Assembly: GCF_000974785.1 (NCBI RefSeq)
Contig: NZ_BBWV01000001.1
Span: forward strand, 1,798,001 to 1,862,000
Reading direction: 5' to 3'
DNA: 64,000 nt
Source of the DNA: Flavihumibacter petaseus NBRC 106054
GTDB lineage: Bacteria > Bacteroidota > Bacteroidia > Chitinophagales > Chitinophagaceae
Part shown: in pieces, positions 1,653-7,926 of the stretch
How the letters are laid out: each line of letters opens with the position of its first letter
Position numbering within the stretch: the first letter of the stretch is position 1
Notes under the pieces: generated by a model
Databases searched by the model: none
Told to the model about the DNA's origin: nothing
What the model saw: only the letters and a program-made list of their open reading frames with translations
Program-made: the position numbers and the translations under genes

Positions 1653-1762
1653 TTGACTTACAGCTTGTTCAATTATAAGTCCAAATTCCAGGCCACATAC
1701 TAATATTCATTTGTTAAACACGATCCGCGTTGCAACCGCGATTCGCAAGACCAAAAAAATCC

Positions 1763-2656
1763 TCAATCGCGATGCAATGCGTAGAAATTGGGGTTCAATG
1801 ATTTTCGCAGTTGACCGTAGATTTCCTTAGACAAAATAATTTCATCAGCATTTAATGCTTCCCGAAGTTGCGTGGTCGTTCTCACGCCGACAATGGCACT
1901 TGTGATGGCAGAATTTTCGAGAACAAAACGGATTGCCATTGATCCCAGTGAAATTTTGTCAGTTGCCCGATGCATTGCATCCACAACAGTGGCAACAGTT
2001 TCCACATTGTGGTCAAGGTAAGGCCTCGGAGGTTTTCCACCTAGTAAACCGCCTGCAACCGTTCCTCTGGCCAACACTCCGATCCCTGCCTGATGCAAGT
2101 CCCGAAGGCAATGTTCCTCTGGGCGGAGATCGAGCATGCTGTATTGCATCATAACACTGATGATGTTCGAACGCCGGATAAATTCCCTGATTACATTCGG
2201 TCTGATAGAGGATATGCCGTAGTACCTGATCTTACCACTTTTTACAAGGTCCTCAAATGTACCGATGGTCTCGTCAATATCATCCTGGATCGTTCCGCCA
2301 TGAAGTTGGTAGAGATCGATGTAGTCGGTTTTAAGCCTTCGGAGACTATCATCAATCGACCTGAGTATATGTGATTTTTCAGGATGCCAGTCGAGTCCGC
2401 TACCGTCCGGTTTCCAGACATTTCCAACTTTGGAGGCAATTACGACTTCTTTTCTTTTTTCAGCGAGCGCCTTTCCGAGATTGGTTTCATTGATGCCGTG
2501 CTGATAGATATCTGCGGTATCAAAGAAGTTAATTCCACCCGCAATTGCTTGATGGATCAGGTAAGCGACGTTGTCAGGATTTGCGTCCAGTGACATTGCA
2601 CCAAAGCCGATACGACTGATATGAAGGCTTGAATTGCCCAGTTGCCGGTATTCCAT
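1763..2656 (-). CDS. aldo/keto reductase
   Basis: A 297-residue single-domain (beta/alpha)8 NAD(P)H-dependent oxidoreductase. Visible family features are the N-terminal LGNSSLHISRIGFGAMSL, the catalytic Asp/Tyr segment FDTADIYQHG (Asp about 46, Tyr about 51), the Lys in IASKVG, and the His in YQLHGG that completes the Asp-Tyr-Lys-His tetrad. The C-terminal cofactor-binding part (SAIVGVRTTTQLREAL) is also present. Length and motifs are complete, so it should be active; the physiological carbonyl substrate cannot be inferred. It starts at ATG 2656, with the DUF6526 stop only 2 bp upstream, so the two may be co-transcribed. Confidence 0.92.
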   Translation of the reverse strand: MEYRQLGNSSLHISRIGFGAMSLDANPDNVAYLIHQAIAGGINFFDTADIYQHGINETNLGKALAEKRKEVVIASKVGNVWKPDGSGLDWHPEKSHILRSIDDSLRRLKTDYIDLYQLHGGTIQDDIDETIGTFEDLVKSGKIRYYGISSIRPNVIREFIRRSNIISVMMQYSMLDLRPEEHCLRDLHQAGIGVLARGTVAGGLLGGKPPRPYLDHNVETVATVVDAMHRATDKISLGSMAIRFVLENSAITSAIVGVRTTTQLREALNADEIILSKEIYGQLRKSLNPNFYALHRD

Positions 2657-2658
2657 GG

Positions 2659-3096
2659 TTAAACACGCAGGTAATCGGGTTTCCAGTTCCGGATGCTTTG
2701 TTTTATGCTGCCTGCAGACAGTTTTTCTTTAATGGCCCGGTCTGTCAGGTCTGGAAATTCTTCGTCTCCCGCGAACCTGAGGGCGGCCAGCTGCCGCATA
2801 GAAAGTTGATGTTCCACGGGTGAAAAGTCTTTTCCTGTCAAAATATAATAACGAAGGCGCATTTCATTTCGCACCAGCCTGTCCTGCAGTGTAAGGGCAT
2901 AATGCTGACGAGTCATGTAAGAAAGCCACCCGATGACAATAAACAATATTCCCAGTATTAACCATTCCATTTGCTGTTCTGGGTGCCGGCTGCTTTCAAA
3001 AAAAGAAAATATGGTACCCGCCAATATAACCGGATAAAAAACAAAATGGTGTGGCGGATAGTATCGGATATGGTTGCTGGCATCCTGTCTTTTCAT
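2659..3096 (-). CDS. DUF6526-like membrane protein
   Basis: A 145-residue protein with two hydrophobic segments near its N-terminus (around HFVFYPVILAGTIF and MEWLILGILFIVIGWLSY) and a charged cytoplasmic tail. The opening MKRQDASNHIRYYPPHHFVF and the tail motif RNEMRLRYYILTG match what I recall of the DUF6526 family of Bacteroidota. Function unknown. The ATG at 3096 was chosen over one 36 bp further upstream because the extra 12 residues do not belong to the family pattern. The ATG overlaps, on the opposite strand, the ATG of a possible leader ORF. Confidence 0.7.
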   Translation of the reverse strand: MKRQDASNHIRYYPPHHFVFYPVILAGTIFSFFESSRHPEQQMEWLILGILFIVIGWLSYMTRQHYALTLQDRLVRNEMRLRYYILTGKDFSPVEHQLSMRQLAALRFAGDEEFPDLTDRAIKEKLSAGSIKQSIRNWKPDYLRV

Positions 3097-4362: not shown

Positions 4363-5508
4363 TTATTTGTCCATACGGACGATCACAGGCTGAAAAGTAC
4401 CGATGACCTCCACAAGTTCCTGTTGTTGTAACATTACTTTATGGATGTCTTTATAGGCATGAGGCGCTTCGTCAGTACCGCCACCCAGCAAGGTGACTTT
4501 CGCTTTTTGCAAAGCCTGGTTCAATTCTTTTGCGGAGATCGCAGCACGCGCTTTCGATCGGCTCATTTTTCGTCCTGCACCATGTGAAGCAGATTGCAAT
4601 GAACTCGAATTGCCCCTACCGCTAACAATAAAACCGGGCGTCGTCATCGATCCGGGAATAATACCCGCCACTCCTTTTCCTGCAGGAGTGGCCCCTTTTC
4701 TATGCACTACACTGGTGATGCCGTCGATCGTTTCCTTCCAGGCAAAATTGTGGTGGTTGCTTACAGTGGCTACCGGCCGCTGTCCCAATTCCCGGGCAAG
4801 TTTTTCATGGATCACCTCATGGCAGGCGGTCGCATACCTTCCTGCCAGCTGCATTGCTGCCCAGTATTCAGCGCCTTCCTGTTCATGAAGCCAGAGCCAG
4901 CTCAGGGAACACAGGTCCTGGTTGAGCTTTCTTTTCCTTGCGGCCAGGCGGGTGAAGTAATTGGCAATATTGGCTCCGAGTGCGCGGGAGCCGGAATGTG
5001 ACAACAGGCCGATAAATTCCCCCGCCGGTAAATCAGGATGATTGGGATGGTGCTGCAGGGTAACTTTGCCCCACTCTACAAAGTGGTTGCCACTTCCCGA
5101 ACTTCCAAGCTGCTTCCATGCTTTTTTTTGAAGTTCTCCAATCCATTTCACTTCCCGGAAAAGCGGGTCTTCCATTATTGCATGATTGCTTGCTTTTTCA
5201 AATTGATTACCACTGCCGAAACAGGTGCTTTCCAGGAGAGCATTGGTGAAAAAGTAGCTTCTTTTATCCAGTTTTCGTGGAGTTATATCAAAAAGACTAA
5301 GATGCATGCGACATCCGATGTCAACACCCACAGCAAAGGGGATGACTGCATCTTCCACAGCAAGAACACCGCCAATTGGCAATCCATACCCCGCATGTGC
5401 ATCCGGCATTAATGCACCGGCCGTGCTGACCGGAAGCTTCATGGCCTGGTGCATCTGGTGCAACGCAACAGATTCAATATGTTGTTGTCCAAAAATATTC
5501 AGTTTCAT
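4363..5508 (-). CDS. rtcB: RtcB family RNA ligase
   Basis: A 381-residue RtcB-type 3'-phosphate (or 2',3'-cyclic phosphate)/5'-OH RNA ligase; the family uses GTP and Mn2+ and seals broken tRNAs or mRNAs. All signature blocks are visible: PDAHAGYGLPIGGV, GVDIGCRM (metal Cys), GSGNHFVEW, HSGSRALG, HNFAWKE, HRKGATPAGKG, PGSMTTPGFIVSG, and the guanylylation-site block SASHGAGRKM (His about 304), closing with LGGGTDEAPHAYKD. It should be catalytically intact. It follows the AAA ATPase gene with a 9-bp gap, so the two form one operon. No archease or prfH gene is adjacent. The operon is preceded by a leader ORF and terminator (6629-6745) suggestive of attenuation. Confidence 0.95.
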   Translation of the reverse strand: MKLNIFGQQHIESVALHQMHQAMKLPVSTAGALMPDAHAGYGLPIGGVLAVEDAVIPFAVGVDIGCRMHLSLFDITPRKLDKRSYFFTNALLESTCFGSGNQFEKASNHAIMEDPLFREVKWIGELQKKAWKQLGSSGSGNHFVEWGKVTLQHHPNHPDLPAGEFIGLLSHSGSRALGANIANYFTRLAARKRKLNQDLCSLSWLWLHEQEGAEYWAAMQLAGRYATACHEVIHEKLARELGQRPVATVSNHHNFAWKETIDGITSVVHRKGATPAGKGVAGIIPGSMTTPGFIVSGRGNSSSLQSASHGAGRKMSRSKARAAISAKELNQALQKAKVTLLGGGTDEAPHAYKDIHKVMLQQQELVEVIGTFQPVIVRMDK

Positions 5509-5517
5509 TTTTTTTGT

Positions 5518-6603
5518 TTAATTGTTCGATACTTCCCTTCTGAATCCGATCACCTCCATCCGTTGTGTTGTTGTTGTTGTACCCGGATTTGTGATCTCAG
5601 CAAGGGTGAGCGGCGCAGTGATCCTTTGGTGTAATCCCAGGTGATCACTCAGTCGCTGTGCCTTTGTTGTTTCAAGTTTGCCAAACGCATATTGCGCAAT
5701 GAGCCGGCCTTTCCGTAGAAAGGCCTGATCCAGCAACTGGATGGAATTGTTGAAGGTGCAGACGAGCTGAATGTTAAGGCAATCATTAAGCAGTCCGTCG
5801 CTGATATTTAACAGGTTACTGACTGTATTGCTGTAAGTGATTTTTCTGTCCATCAGGATATTCTCCGCATCTTCTATTACCAGTACTGAATCCGGATGAT
5901 CAAGTAATAACTCCATCAGTTCGGGCCGCGCAAGGTCACCTGCCATAGTTGGGGAAAGGAATAATACTTTCTTGCTGAGGCTTCCGATCAGATGGCGCAG
6001 GTAAGTAGTTTTACCGGTGCCCGGAAGACCGTGCAGTAACACGATGCCCTTGCCTTTCGGTTCGCTGAGACAGGCCTTGACAGTTTTATCAACAGGTTTG
6101 AAATCATCATTGTAATACAAATCGATGTCAAGTTCAGTCGGTTCAATGGGCAAAGACCTTAGATCCAGTCCATGGTTCCCGTTAACGATAATGTTGATCC
6201 TGTATTCACCTGACACTTCACTTTCAGGGTATTGCAGGATGCATTTGTACATTTCCGTTACCAAAGCTTCTGACGATTCAGCGGAGTAGATAAAAACGCG
6301 ATCTGAATCAACGTCTATTACTAGTTCCTGCCGGAACACAAGTATGGTATCACCAGCTGATAGCTGTTGTTTTTCCCAGTCGTGATATTGCCTGCTGCAA
6401 ACTTTGACAATGTGATTGCGCCACCTGTCCAGTAAAAACCGCAAAACTTTTTCTCCGTCAAGGCGCGTGATGACATGCATGTTCGGAATGCTGCCAAACC
6501 TGCTGTAGAAAAGCTTTCTGCCATCCACGTAATAGTCTGTGAATAGATTGGCCGGCTGTGCAACAGTCAATAAGTTGCGCAGCCACCGTTGAATTATGTT
6601 CAT
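5518..6603 (-). CDS. BCS1-like AAA family ATPase, partner of RtcB
   Basis: A 361-residue protein with a unique N-terminal half (residues 1-170) and a C-terminal AAA+ core. Walker A is GLPGTGKT (about 190-197), Walker B VLVIEDAE (about 233-240), sensor 1 CTFNN and the arginine-finger-like segment LDQAFLRKGRL. The spelling of Walker B and of the RKGRL segment recalls BCS1/YjoB-type AAA proteins. No membrane segment is seen, unlike mitochondrial BCS1. The ATG at 6603 is preferred over a start 39 bp upstream, which lies inside the terminator region. It sits 9 bp upstream of rtcB; by context it may remodel RtcB, its RNA substrate, or a damaged RNA-protein complex. The exact role is unknown. Confidence 0.85.
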   Translation of the reverse strand: MNIIQRWLRNLLTVAQPANLFTDYYVDGRKLFYSRFGSIPNMHVITRLDGEKVLRFLLDRWRNHIVKVCSRQYHDWEKQQLSAGDTILVFRQELVIDVDSDRVFIYSAESSEALVTEMYKCILQYPESEVSGEYRINIIVNGNHGLDLRSLPIEPTELDIDLYYNDDFKPVDKTVKACLSEPKGKGIVLLHGLPGTGKTTYLRHLIGSLSKKVLFLSPTMAGDLARPELMELLLDHPDSVLVIEDAENILMDRKITYSNTVSNLLNISDGLLNDCLNIQLVCTFNNSIQLLDQAFLRKGRLIAQYAFGKLETTKAQRLSDHLGLHQRITAPLTLAEITNPGTTTTTQRMEVIGFRREVSNN

Positions 6604-6628
6604 GGTGATTGAATGAAAAATGAGCAAT

Positions 6629-6653
6629 AAAAAACCCCGCAATCGCTGCGGGG
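6629..6653 (-). terminator. intrinsic terminator/attenuator upstream of AAA-rtcB operon
   Basis: Perfect 7-bp stem CCCCGCA/TGCGGGG, 5-nt loop, then six T residues on the minus strand. The T tract ends 25 nt before the AAA start codon, leaving no room for a normal promoter between terminator and gene; the operon promoter must lie upstream, so the terminator has to be read through. It could in part also end the potassium-channel transcript, whose stop is 166 nt away. Confidence 0.7.
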
Positions 6654-6685
6654 CCTTTACTATCTTGAATCCTTAATGTTATCGG

Positions 6686-6745
6686 TTAGAAATAGGTTGC
6701 CCGCGTCGCGAGGTGACTTTTGTAATTGAATGGAATGCGGGACAT
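6686..6745 (-). CDS. putative 19-aa leader peptide of the AAA-rtcB operon
   Basis: An ORF encoding MSRIPFNYKSHLATRATYF, ending in TAA 32 nt before the terminator hairpin. Hardly any codon is repeated: it samples Arg, Ile, Pro, Phe, Asn, Tyr, Lys, Ser, His, Leu, Ala and Thr. Three segments can pair alternately: GTCCCGC at the ORF start, GCGGG inside the Thr-Arg-Ala codons, and CCCCGC of the terminator. That is the geometry of a ribosome-controlled attenuator. Translation is not shown; the ORF could be fortuitous. Confidence 0.45.
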   Translation of the reverse strand: MSRIPFNYKSHLATRATYF

Positions 6746-6765
6746 AGCTGACAAATTTTGATGCG

Positions 6766-6796
6766 CAAAGGTTTAAAAAATATTTCATCTATGCAA
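6766..6796 (-). promoter_or_regulatory. candidate promoter for leader-AAA-rtcB transcript
   Basis: On the minus strand a TTG (6794-6796) is followed after 20 nt by AACCTTTG (6766-6773), one mismatch from the Bacteroidota -7 consensus TAnnTTTG. It lies 20 bp upstream of the leader ORF. Confidence 0.4.
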
Positions 6797-6818
6797 GAAG
6801 AAGCCAGAAAATTTTTTG

Positions 6819-7799
6819 TTACGCTTTTTGGTAACTGCAGTTATCAGGTAGCGGCAATTCATCATAGGCATTGAGAAGATCGAGTTCAAGGACCGTTGCA
6901 GTCTGGGTTTCATTCGGATGATACATTGCCCTGAACTTTGCTCCGTAAACAAAATCTTCAGCATTATACGATGTCTTCGAGATCACGGTGTTGGAAAAAC
7001 TTTCATCAAATCCTTCAACAAACACGAGCATTTCCGCTTTGGATGCCAGAAGATCCTGATGGGTTAAACCATACAGCGGACTTTCTTCATTGATGACGTG
7101 CACAAGTGTCCAGTTGGCAGTAAGTGTGTTGGCGCGCGACAATTGCAGGGGAAGGGAATAAAACCGGTTTTTGGCAACGCCGTCTTCCAGTTCCTGAATC
7201 GCCAGCGTTGTTCTCACTTCAACATTAACCAGGTAGTTTCTGGTAAAAGGTACCATGCGGAACATGATGGCTAGTCCGCCCTGGAAAGGGGCGAACAATG
7301 CCTTCTCACTAAAACGGATAAACGCTCTCGGCCGTGCAAATCGCCCATACATGAGACCTGTCACCACCGCAAAACTCATGAGACCTGTAAGGGCTTCCAG
7401 GGAGGCTACAAAGCTCGCGGCAATGCCAACAGGATTGATCCTGCCGTAACCCACAGTCGTAAAAGTCTGCGCACTGAAAAAATAAGCTTCCCCGAATTTT
7501 TCACTCCAGGTGTTGGCAACCATTCCACTCAGGTGATCAAGTCCGATCCAGATGTAGACGCCCGCAAACAGAAGGTTCACCGACAGAAAAAAGATAACGA
7601 CCACCACCAGGAACTTCCATTGGGGCATGGTCAGCAGGCTATGGTAGATGTTAAGTCTTTCCATCAGCCGCATGCCCCGGATATGCATATTGGGTTGGCC
7701 ATTTTTGTGGAAAAAACGGCCACCATTGAGCGCGGTATTCGTACCCAGGCCAGTTTCCAGGTTCTGCCTGGCTTTGCGGTTGGTTTGTTTGAGTGCCAT
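6819..7799 (-). CDS. inward-rectifier (KirBac-type) potassium channel
   Basis: A 326-residue Kir-type K+ channel. Order: basic cytoplasmic N-terminus, TM1 (FLVVVVIFFLSVNLLFAGVY), pore helix and selectivity filter TVGYG (about residues 114-118), TM2 (around ALTGLMSFAVVTGLMYGRFA) ending in the RFARP gate region, then a beta-rich cytoplasmic IRK domain of about 190 residues. The filter is intact. The start at 7799 (MALKQTNRK) was chosen because the 23 upstream codons are not Kir-like and an A/T-rich leader precedes it. Inner membrane; passive K+ flux with ligand gating through the C-terminal domain is the family role. It is divergent from the cytochrome gene. Confidence 0.93.
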   Translation of the reverse strand: MALKQTNRKARQNLETGLGTNTALNGGRFFHKNGQPNMHIRGMRLMERLNIYHSLLTMPQWKFLVVVVIFFLSVNLLFAGVYIWIGLDHLSGMVANTWSEKFGEAYFFSAQTFTTVGYGRINPVGIAASFVASLEALTGLMSFAVVTGLMYGRFARPRAFIRFSEKALFAPFQGGLAIMFRMVPFTRNYLVNVEVRTTLAIQELEDGVAKNRFYSLPLQLSRANTLTANWTLVHVINEESPLYGLTHQDLLASKAEMLVFVEGFDESFSNTVISKTSYNAEDFVYGAKFRAMYHPNETQTATVLELDLLNAYDELPLPDNCSYQKA

Positions 7800-7926
7800 A
7801 ATCAAAATTAGCGATGCAGCATTGGTTCTCAATACCGGAAATGATGCTCCTGCCGCACTCTTCATCACTGCCGGGGGTTGACAGTGCAGATTTTTATTTG
7901 GACATTGTAGTTAATAACCCCTCAAC

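Follow-up and report, generated by a model that had tools for sequence, protein, structure and literature searches.

A mixed-codon leader peptide and a probable ribosome-controlled attenuator ahead of RNA-repair operons in Chitinophagaceae

Classical amino-acid attenuators of the trp/his type combine a short open reading frame (ORF) with a competing antiterminator and an intrinsic terminator; the position of the ribosome decides between the two structures, and each leader listens to one or few amino acids. These ribosome-mediated transcription attenuators have been reviewed (PMC11550727). In actinobacteria, whiB7/wblC has an upstream ORF (uORF), a Rho-independent terminator and an antiterminator, and several antibiotics as well as amino-acid starvation induce it (PMC11550727, PMC12121999). 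For the toiL uORF of topAI-yjhQP in E. coli, stalling anywhere has been proposed to suffice, and several stresses are sensed (PMC12121999). These two uORF systems are the closest regulators to the leaders described below. As for the controlled genes, the RtcR-controlled rtcBA is an RtcB operon regulated by damaged tRNA (PMC7790460), and in Anabaena TrcR represses a trn array, rtcB, slipin and an AAA gene, which respond as a set, the trn array being silent and induced by translation antibiotics (PMC10272220). The titles and abstracts of the open-access literature searched contained neither a leader-peptide attenuator of rtcB nor a 20-amino-acid leader.

The locus compared here with these systems lies on the minus strand of a 64-kb stretch of Flavihumibacter petaseus DNA (the window; Table 1). 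A leader ORF, a terminator and an AAA-rtcB operon had been placed there in a preliminary description, and their positions proved correct when checked on the sequence and with Pfam. The sequence reading puts the AAA start codon 25 nt past the T run of the terminator, and 9 nt separate the AAA stop codon from the rtcB start. With no tRNA genes, this operon represents the minimal form. A Kir-type potassium channel gene (Pfam IRK_C) lies upstream on the same strand and ends at 6819. The minus-strand terminator was read by eye, the program's pattern scan having given a hairpin on the plus strand only. The leader promoter is absent from the program's promoter scan, which covers sigma-70 hexamers only; we take the motif to be a Bacteroidota-type -33/-7 promoter.

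Table 1. Leader and operon features in the F. petaseus window
Feature	Position	Strand	Remarks
Leader promoter-like TTG-N20-AACCTTTG	6766..6796	-	Read from sequence; TTG 6796-6794, AACCTTTG 6773-6766
Leader ORF MSRIPFNYKSHLATRATYF*, 19 codons	6686..6745	-	ATG 6745, TAA 6686; geometry as in relatives
Segment 1, GTCCCGC, start of leader ORF	6737..6743	-	Role doubtful; with segment 2, -11.3 kcal/mol
Segment 2, GCGGG, codons 14-16, putative antiterminator arm	6700..6704	-	Pairing p=0.066 in this copy alone
Intrinsic terminator	6629..6653	-	Segment 3 CCCCGC 6653-6648, segment 4 GCGGGG 6640-6635, T6 6634-6629; -12.6 kcal/mol
AAA ATPase gene, operon gene 1	5518..6603	-	PF00004 2.6e-9; ATG 6603
rtcB, RNA ligase	4363..5508	-	PF01139 5.9e-78

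Judged from sequence comparison, this arrangement is probably a family-level ribosome-controlled transcription attenuator. RNA polymerase would start at the leader promoter, and a ribosome would translate the leader ORF. If all codons are read promptly, the ribosome would reach the stop codon, segments 2 and 3 would be kept apart, the terminator (3:4) would form and the operon would be off. An early stall (no later than about codon 19 of the 30 in relatives, or codon 10 of 19 in F. petaseus) would leave segment 2 free to form 2:3, and AAA-rtcB would be transcribed. The computed support consists of a conserved ORF, a fixed geometry, covarying arms, the amino-acid diversity of the leader and its site before RNA-repair operons; we infer that the ORF is translated, that ribosomes stall in it, that the terminator is read through and that loss of charged tRNA is the signal.

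Taken by itself, the F. petaseus copy is a short, weak member of this device, and the case rests on its relatives. The complementarity of GCGGG to the terminator arm gave p=0.066 (500 dinucleotide shuffles), the whole-leader fold has a z of -1.19, and the leader peptide holds 12 distinct residues out of 18, against 11.2 expected (z 0.57), an ordinary diversity. The strict DNA pattern defined below has no match in this genome, and the relaxed detector did not recover the leader because it required a distance of 8-34 nt from the stop, and with the longer arm the best duplex here ends at 7 nt. A DNA probe made of the 231-nt leader region found no further copy in the F. petaseus genome and gave one short match (E 7.8e-4) in 15 other genomes of the genus; conservation was therefore sought through the gene and the architecture. 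Rfam 15 returned seven matches in positions 5400-7900 (rimP, Leu_leader and others), all under the gathering score.

No close homologues of the F. petaseus AAA protein were found, the best identities being about 50%. Relatives were found in 65 of 195 genomes of its own family, Chitinophagaceae, by a single-protein search and in 123 of 394 by a profile search. Identity is 43-46% to congeners and up to 50% to other genera, and the fact that the protein is no closer to congeners suggests horizontal transfer of the unit. From 111 non-redundant AAA loci, 22 were picked by eye and 14 distinct leaders with a clear ORF were kept; four of the 22 were dropped without a clear ATG ORF (L036, L043, L058, L021) and four as repeats or look-alikes (L118, L124, L116, L111), and L015, L042, L051, L097 and L099 were left out, with a hairpin only 87-160 nt upstream. 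In all 14 leaders before AAA, the gap between stop codon and hairpin is 22-32 nt, and a stretch complementary to the 5' arm of the hairpin ends 9-32 nt before the end of the stop codon. This complementarity has a Fisher p of 7e-10, with 7 of the 14 leaders singly below 0.05 (500 dinucleotide shuffles each). The six Flavihumibacter genomes with AAA (G000, which is F. petaseus, and G001, G002, G010, G011 and G014) all have this layout, with rtcB downstream.

A strict DNA pattern, GCGGGG-N25-55-CCCCGC-N3-12-GCGGGG-TTTT, occurs at 59 places in 58 of the 394 family genomes, and its reversed form at none. Examination covered 57 of these places, G002 and G010, which share the leader peptide of G001, being left out. 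At 56 of the places examined a leader ORF was called, with exactly 30 codons in 36, a uniformity favoured by choosing the length nearest 30 among alternative starts (L218 was assigned a GTG start); L181 has no ATG ORF and stands outside the 56, with a 29-codon GTG ORF seen by eye. The stop codon lies 22-39 nt before the hairpin (24-34 nt in 53 of 56), and 20 nt separate segment 2 from the end of the stop codon in 38 of the 56. A 42-codon variant of the leader is kept in G210, G322 and G294.

A relaxed detector was run on 40 more regions that lie upstream of AAA. It called 42 units, spread over 28 of the regions, and on the reverse strand it called none; some of the 42 may be chance, e.g., two that lie about 5 kb or more from AAA (L248, L249). 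A peptide profile, which makes no demand on the RNA arms and for which one best ORF per region was retained, found leader-like peptides in 20 of the 40 regions, and in each of the 20 a T-run hairpin lies 22-30 nt past the stop. Units also occur in tandem: the relaxed detector called at least two in 13 of the 40 regions, and a further unit lies within 1500 nt at 21 of the 57 pattern loci (0 in the reverse control). The peptides of these second leaders differ from those of the first, and their arms are often CGACCGG/CCCGGTCG. A narrower pattern, which other arms would escape, matched 6 of 298 genomes of the order, each of them in the own family, and 0 of the 213 genomes outside it. Rfam 15 gave tRNA matches only on L233, L186, L256, L211, L225 and L003. 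The layout among relatives is far beyond chance, a chance layout being argued against by the zero counts for the reversed pattern and in the reverse-strand controls. The leader ORF and terminator that had been proposed before the operon thus recur in the same arrangement in relatives, with ORF, geometry and pairing kept.

These relatives also support the claim, made at the outset, that the leader has a promoter of its own: a relaxed TTTG motif, (TNNN or NANN)TTTG, precedes the leader ATG by 14-50 nt in 51 of 56, compared with 5.5% of control positions. Only 2 of 56 have the strict form, TAnnTTTG.

RNA-repair genes lie downstream on the same strand (up to 9.5 kb) at 55 of the 57 pattern places, which indicates that the device heads the whole operon and that AAA is directly next only in short operons. 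The remaining two loci, L183 and L191, are near contig ends, with 449 and 3294 bases of sequence. RtcB is present at 42 of the 57 loci, AAA at 40, an RNase H-like protein at 33 and SPFH/Band 7 at 27, while TROVE/Ro60-like proteins and RlaP nucleotidyltransferases occur at 4 each; in L211-L214, rtcB follows the leader and AAA was undetected. A scan of 42 loci (34 of the pattern loci plus 8 others) found tRNA genes in 22 of them, with 2-18 per locus. Sets of RtcB, RlaP, Ro60-like, SPFH and tRNA genes resemble RNA-repair operons elsewhere. RtcR (PF06956) has no match in the F. petaseus genome; among 14 control genomes, E. coli alone was positive.

Several further features of these loci were observed. 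Arrays of up to 18 tRNA genes in leader-headed operons (L224:6945-8623, L171:1147-3074, L186:7449-8804 and others) often include Gln, His, Arg, Lys, Asn and Phe tRNAs. Right after the leader, L205:973-1527 and L206:825-1475 encode proteins that match the N-terminal part of AAA only, with no ATPase part. A second short ORF, M(R/L)xxVMK*, lies about 70-135 nt before AAA (L006, L011, L033, L037, L076, L081, L091, L093 and others), downstream of the tRNA array or of the preceding gene; immediately ahead of the AAA start there is often an inverted repeat, GAAATAG...CTATTTC, that contains the TAG of this ORF. Searching 89 loci with a regular expression recovered the ORF in 23, one of them (L032) in the wrong frame, and it may be a further control layer. 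The F. petaseus genome has a second rtcB (L169:2903-4348, plus strand) beside a divergent gene (1678-2706, minus strand) that by eye resembles a WYL-type regulator. An AAA relative with 38% identity is encoded on a viral contig of 334,326 bases (L068:4001-4993).

The terminator arms covary clearly and the antiterminator arms moderately. In alignment A2, made of 33 leaders found without the pattern (L025 omitted), standard pairs fill 93% of the 3:4 cells, compared with 42-56% in slid alignments, and 0 of 500 shuffles reach the covariation score. For 2:3, the share is 83% versus 33-47%, and the score was reached by 6 of 500 shuffles; several variant arms are misaligned in A2, which lowers the paired share. 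The 2:3 covariation rests on few columns, since the columns with two-sided changes (3) and the pair types (9) are not above the shuffles (157 and 126 of 500). Across 34 leaders, pairing with the own terminator arm is stronger than with the arms of others (mean -12.8 versus -11.1 kcal/mol, P = 5e-5), a result against which the four arms cut too far 5' (L242, L249, L261, L267) are biased. In the 16 leaders without CCCCGC in the 9-nt arm window, the own arm was no better than the common one (-11.7 versus -12.5), partly because arms were cut.

Folded without a ribosome, 61 leaders gave a mean of 0.96 for 2:3 and 0.03 for 1:2, L226 being an exception in which 1:2 wins (0.96). Failed initiation may therefore also turn the operon on, and the role of 1:2 as a protector stem is doubtful because 2:3 forms without a ribosome in most leaders. 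The start of the ORF is nonetheless enriched in complement to segment 2, and 37 of 56 leaders have CGC as their third codon. Of the alternate pairing suggested for the three segments, the competition of 2:3 for the 5' arm of the terminator holds up in the relatives, and the 1:2 part is weak. The ribosome footprint extends about 12 nt ahead of the A site, the value used for folding with a stalled ribosome. In this model, relatives form 2:3 when the ribosome stalls no later than codon 18-19 of 30, and F. petaseus does so, at about 0.9, up to codon 10; in L101, 2:3 is low for stalls at codons 10-15. The sharp edge at codons 19-20 is a property of the model, because any overlap of ribosome and segment 2 was set as no pairing. 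A ribosome that has finished the ORF was expected to cover GCGGG; in F. petaseus it would do so, whereas in most relatives segment 2 would lie just behind the ribosome (it ends 20 nt short of the end of the stop codon in 38 of 56).

The majority consensus of 34 thirty-codon leaders, MLRIQLHIETVNWFSPKGDYTVCGACYAEE, contains all 20 amino acids. The 56 leaders have on average 17.45 distinct residues (start Met excluded), compared with 14.07 in ordinary 29-mers from proteins of the same loci, 13.9 and 14.0 in the other two frames and 14.3 in base-shuffled leaders. Twenty distinct residues occur in 3 of the 56 leaders and in 0 of 108,079 ordinary 29-mers. The suggestion that the leader samples many tRNAs, made for the F. 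petaseus ORF, is supported in its relatives by this diversity and by the complete consensus. Kinship among leaders inflates these comparisons, and a set of 18 leaders mutually less than 30% identical guards against it: these have 15.8 distinct residues versus 14.6, with 0 of 4000 shuffles as high, and a Stouffer z of 5.6 against proteins. Repeats are likewise avoided beyond the leaders' own composition in 25 clusters (16.96 versus 14.91 ± 0.27 distinct residues). A head/tail union test (17.48 versus 17.07) is confounded by kinship and carries little weight. Before codon 20, Cys occurs in only 11% and Tyr in only 27% of leaders, and the model expects later stalls to go unsensed.

Because the leaders avoid repeats and hold most or all of the 20 amino acids, a shortage of nearly any charged tRNA should turn the operon on. 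Such a broad trigger would suit an RNA-repair operon, which mends cut RNA and often carries spare tRNA genes. Sampling of tRNAs is the best account of the leader peptides, and we lean towards a universal codon tester, in which every amino acid occurs about once per leader, almost any lack of charged tRNA would lift termination and tandem units would form a stricter gate. A tentative alternative keeps the same attenuator but takes general ribosome trouble as its signal (antibiotics, damaged ribosomes or failed initiation), as in whiB7/wblC or toiL, so that the mixed peptide would merely reflect stalling anywhere. This alternative fits the antiterminator that forms on folding without a ribosome, and also the Anabaena trn/rtcB set, induced by translation antibiotics (PMC10272220), but it leaves unexplained the avoidance of repeats, seen both in the clusters and in the set below 30% identity.

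It is improbable that the leader is an arrest peptide sensing one ligand or state through the nascent chain: many of the 34 leaders with thirty codons have a core similar to HIETVNWFSPKGDYT, but the leaders of L126, L020, L030 and L016 share little of it and keep the geometry, the arms and the diversity. Less probable still is an ordinary terminator of the potassium-channel gene combined with a chance ORF. In its favour, the channel gene shares its strand with the leader and lies upstream of it, and the statistics of the single copy are weak. The congeners G003 and G004, however, have the channel (68% and 66%) with no AAA match, and by eye the 420 nt after it contain no CCCCGC-type terminator; the gene that follows the channel in G003 is a homologue (56%) of the F. 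petaseus gene at 3132-2662. Furthermore, the same layout precedes AAA-rtcB in five congeners. The preliminary description had asked whether the terminator ends only the channel transcript; judging by G003 and G004, it does not go with the channel. In G011, about 280 nt beyond a channel copy that is more distant (45%), there is a different terminator-like hairpin.

Single-base codon differences in the leader frame are synonymous in 41% of cases versus 28% expected, and in the other frames in 22% and 26%, near the expected 26% and 25%; this synonymous excess is the mark of purifying selection on the leader frame. Substitutions are distributed 339/443/441 over the three codon positions, and the lack of enrichment at third positions indicates that the peptide itself evolves freely. 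That the ORFs are small functional proteins beside ordinary terminators is the least likely explanation of all, being in keeping with the selection on the frame and the retained 42-codon variant but at odds with leader sequences that differ widely while stop position and arm complementarity stay constant.

If tRNA sampling is correct, the leader would be a general sensor of translation capacity made from RNA alone and wired to RNA repair and replacement tRNAs. It would offer a testable signal for RtcB induction in the family, F. petaseus having a genome without an RtcR match. Leader-headed operons are predicted to respond to tRNA-cutting toxins, and the leader could serve as a reporter for loss of any aminoacyl-tRNA.

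Compared with the known systems, many of the Chitinophagaceae operons combine a tRNA array with rtcB, SPFH and AAA genes, like the TrcR set of Anabaena; that set, in contrast, consists of scattered genes with a protein repressor at their promoters, and a leader peptide is not described in the available part of the source (PMC10272220). Similarly, rtcBA is under a protein activator, RtcR (PMC7790460). The toiL uORF differs in having eight codons and in acting on translation and Rho instead of an intrinsic terminator (PMC12121999). The uORF, terminator and antiterminator are shared with whiB7/wblC, which controls an antibiotic-resistance regulator and for which the accessible portions of PMC11550727 and PMC12121999 do not describe an all-amino-acid leader. 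Like the trp/his-type attenuators, the Chitinophagaceae leaders have a short ORF, a competing antiterminator, an intrinsic terminator and, as proposed here, a logic based on ribosome position. Unlike them, they have mixed codons and not runs of one regulatory amino acid, carry the antiterminator arm inside the ORF, upstream of the stop, and head RNA-repair and not biosynthetic operons. On the best reading, they would represent a new form of trp/whiB7-type attenuation in which many aminoacyl-tRNAs are polled at once.
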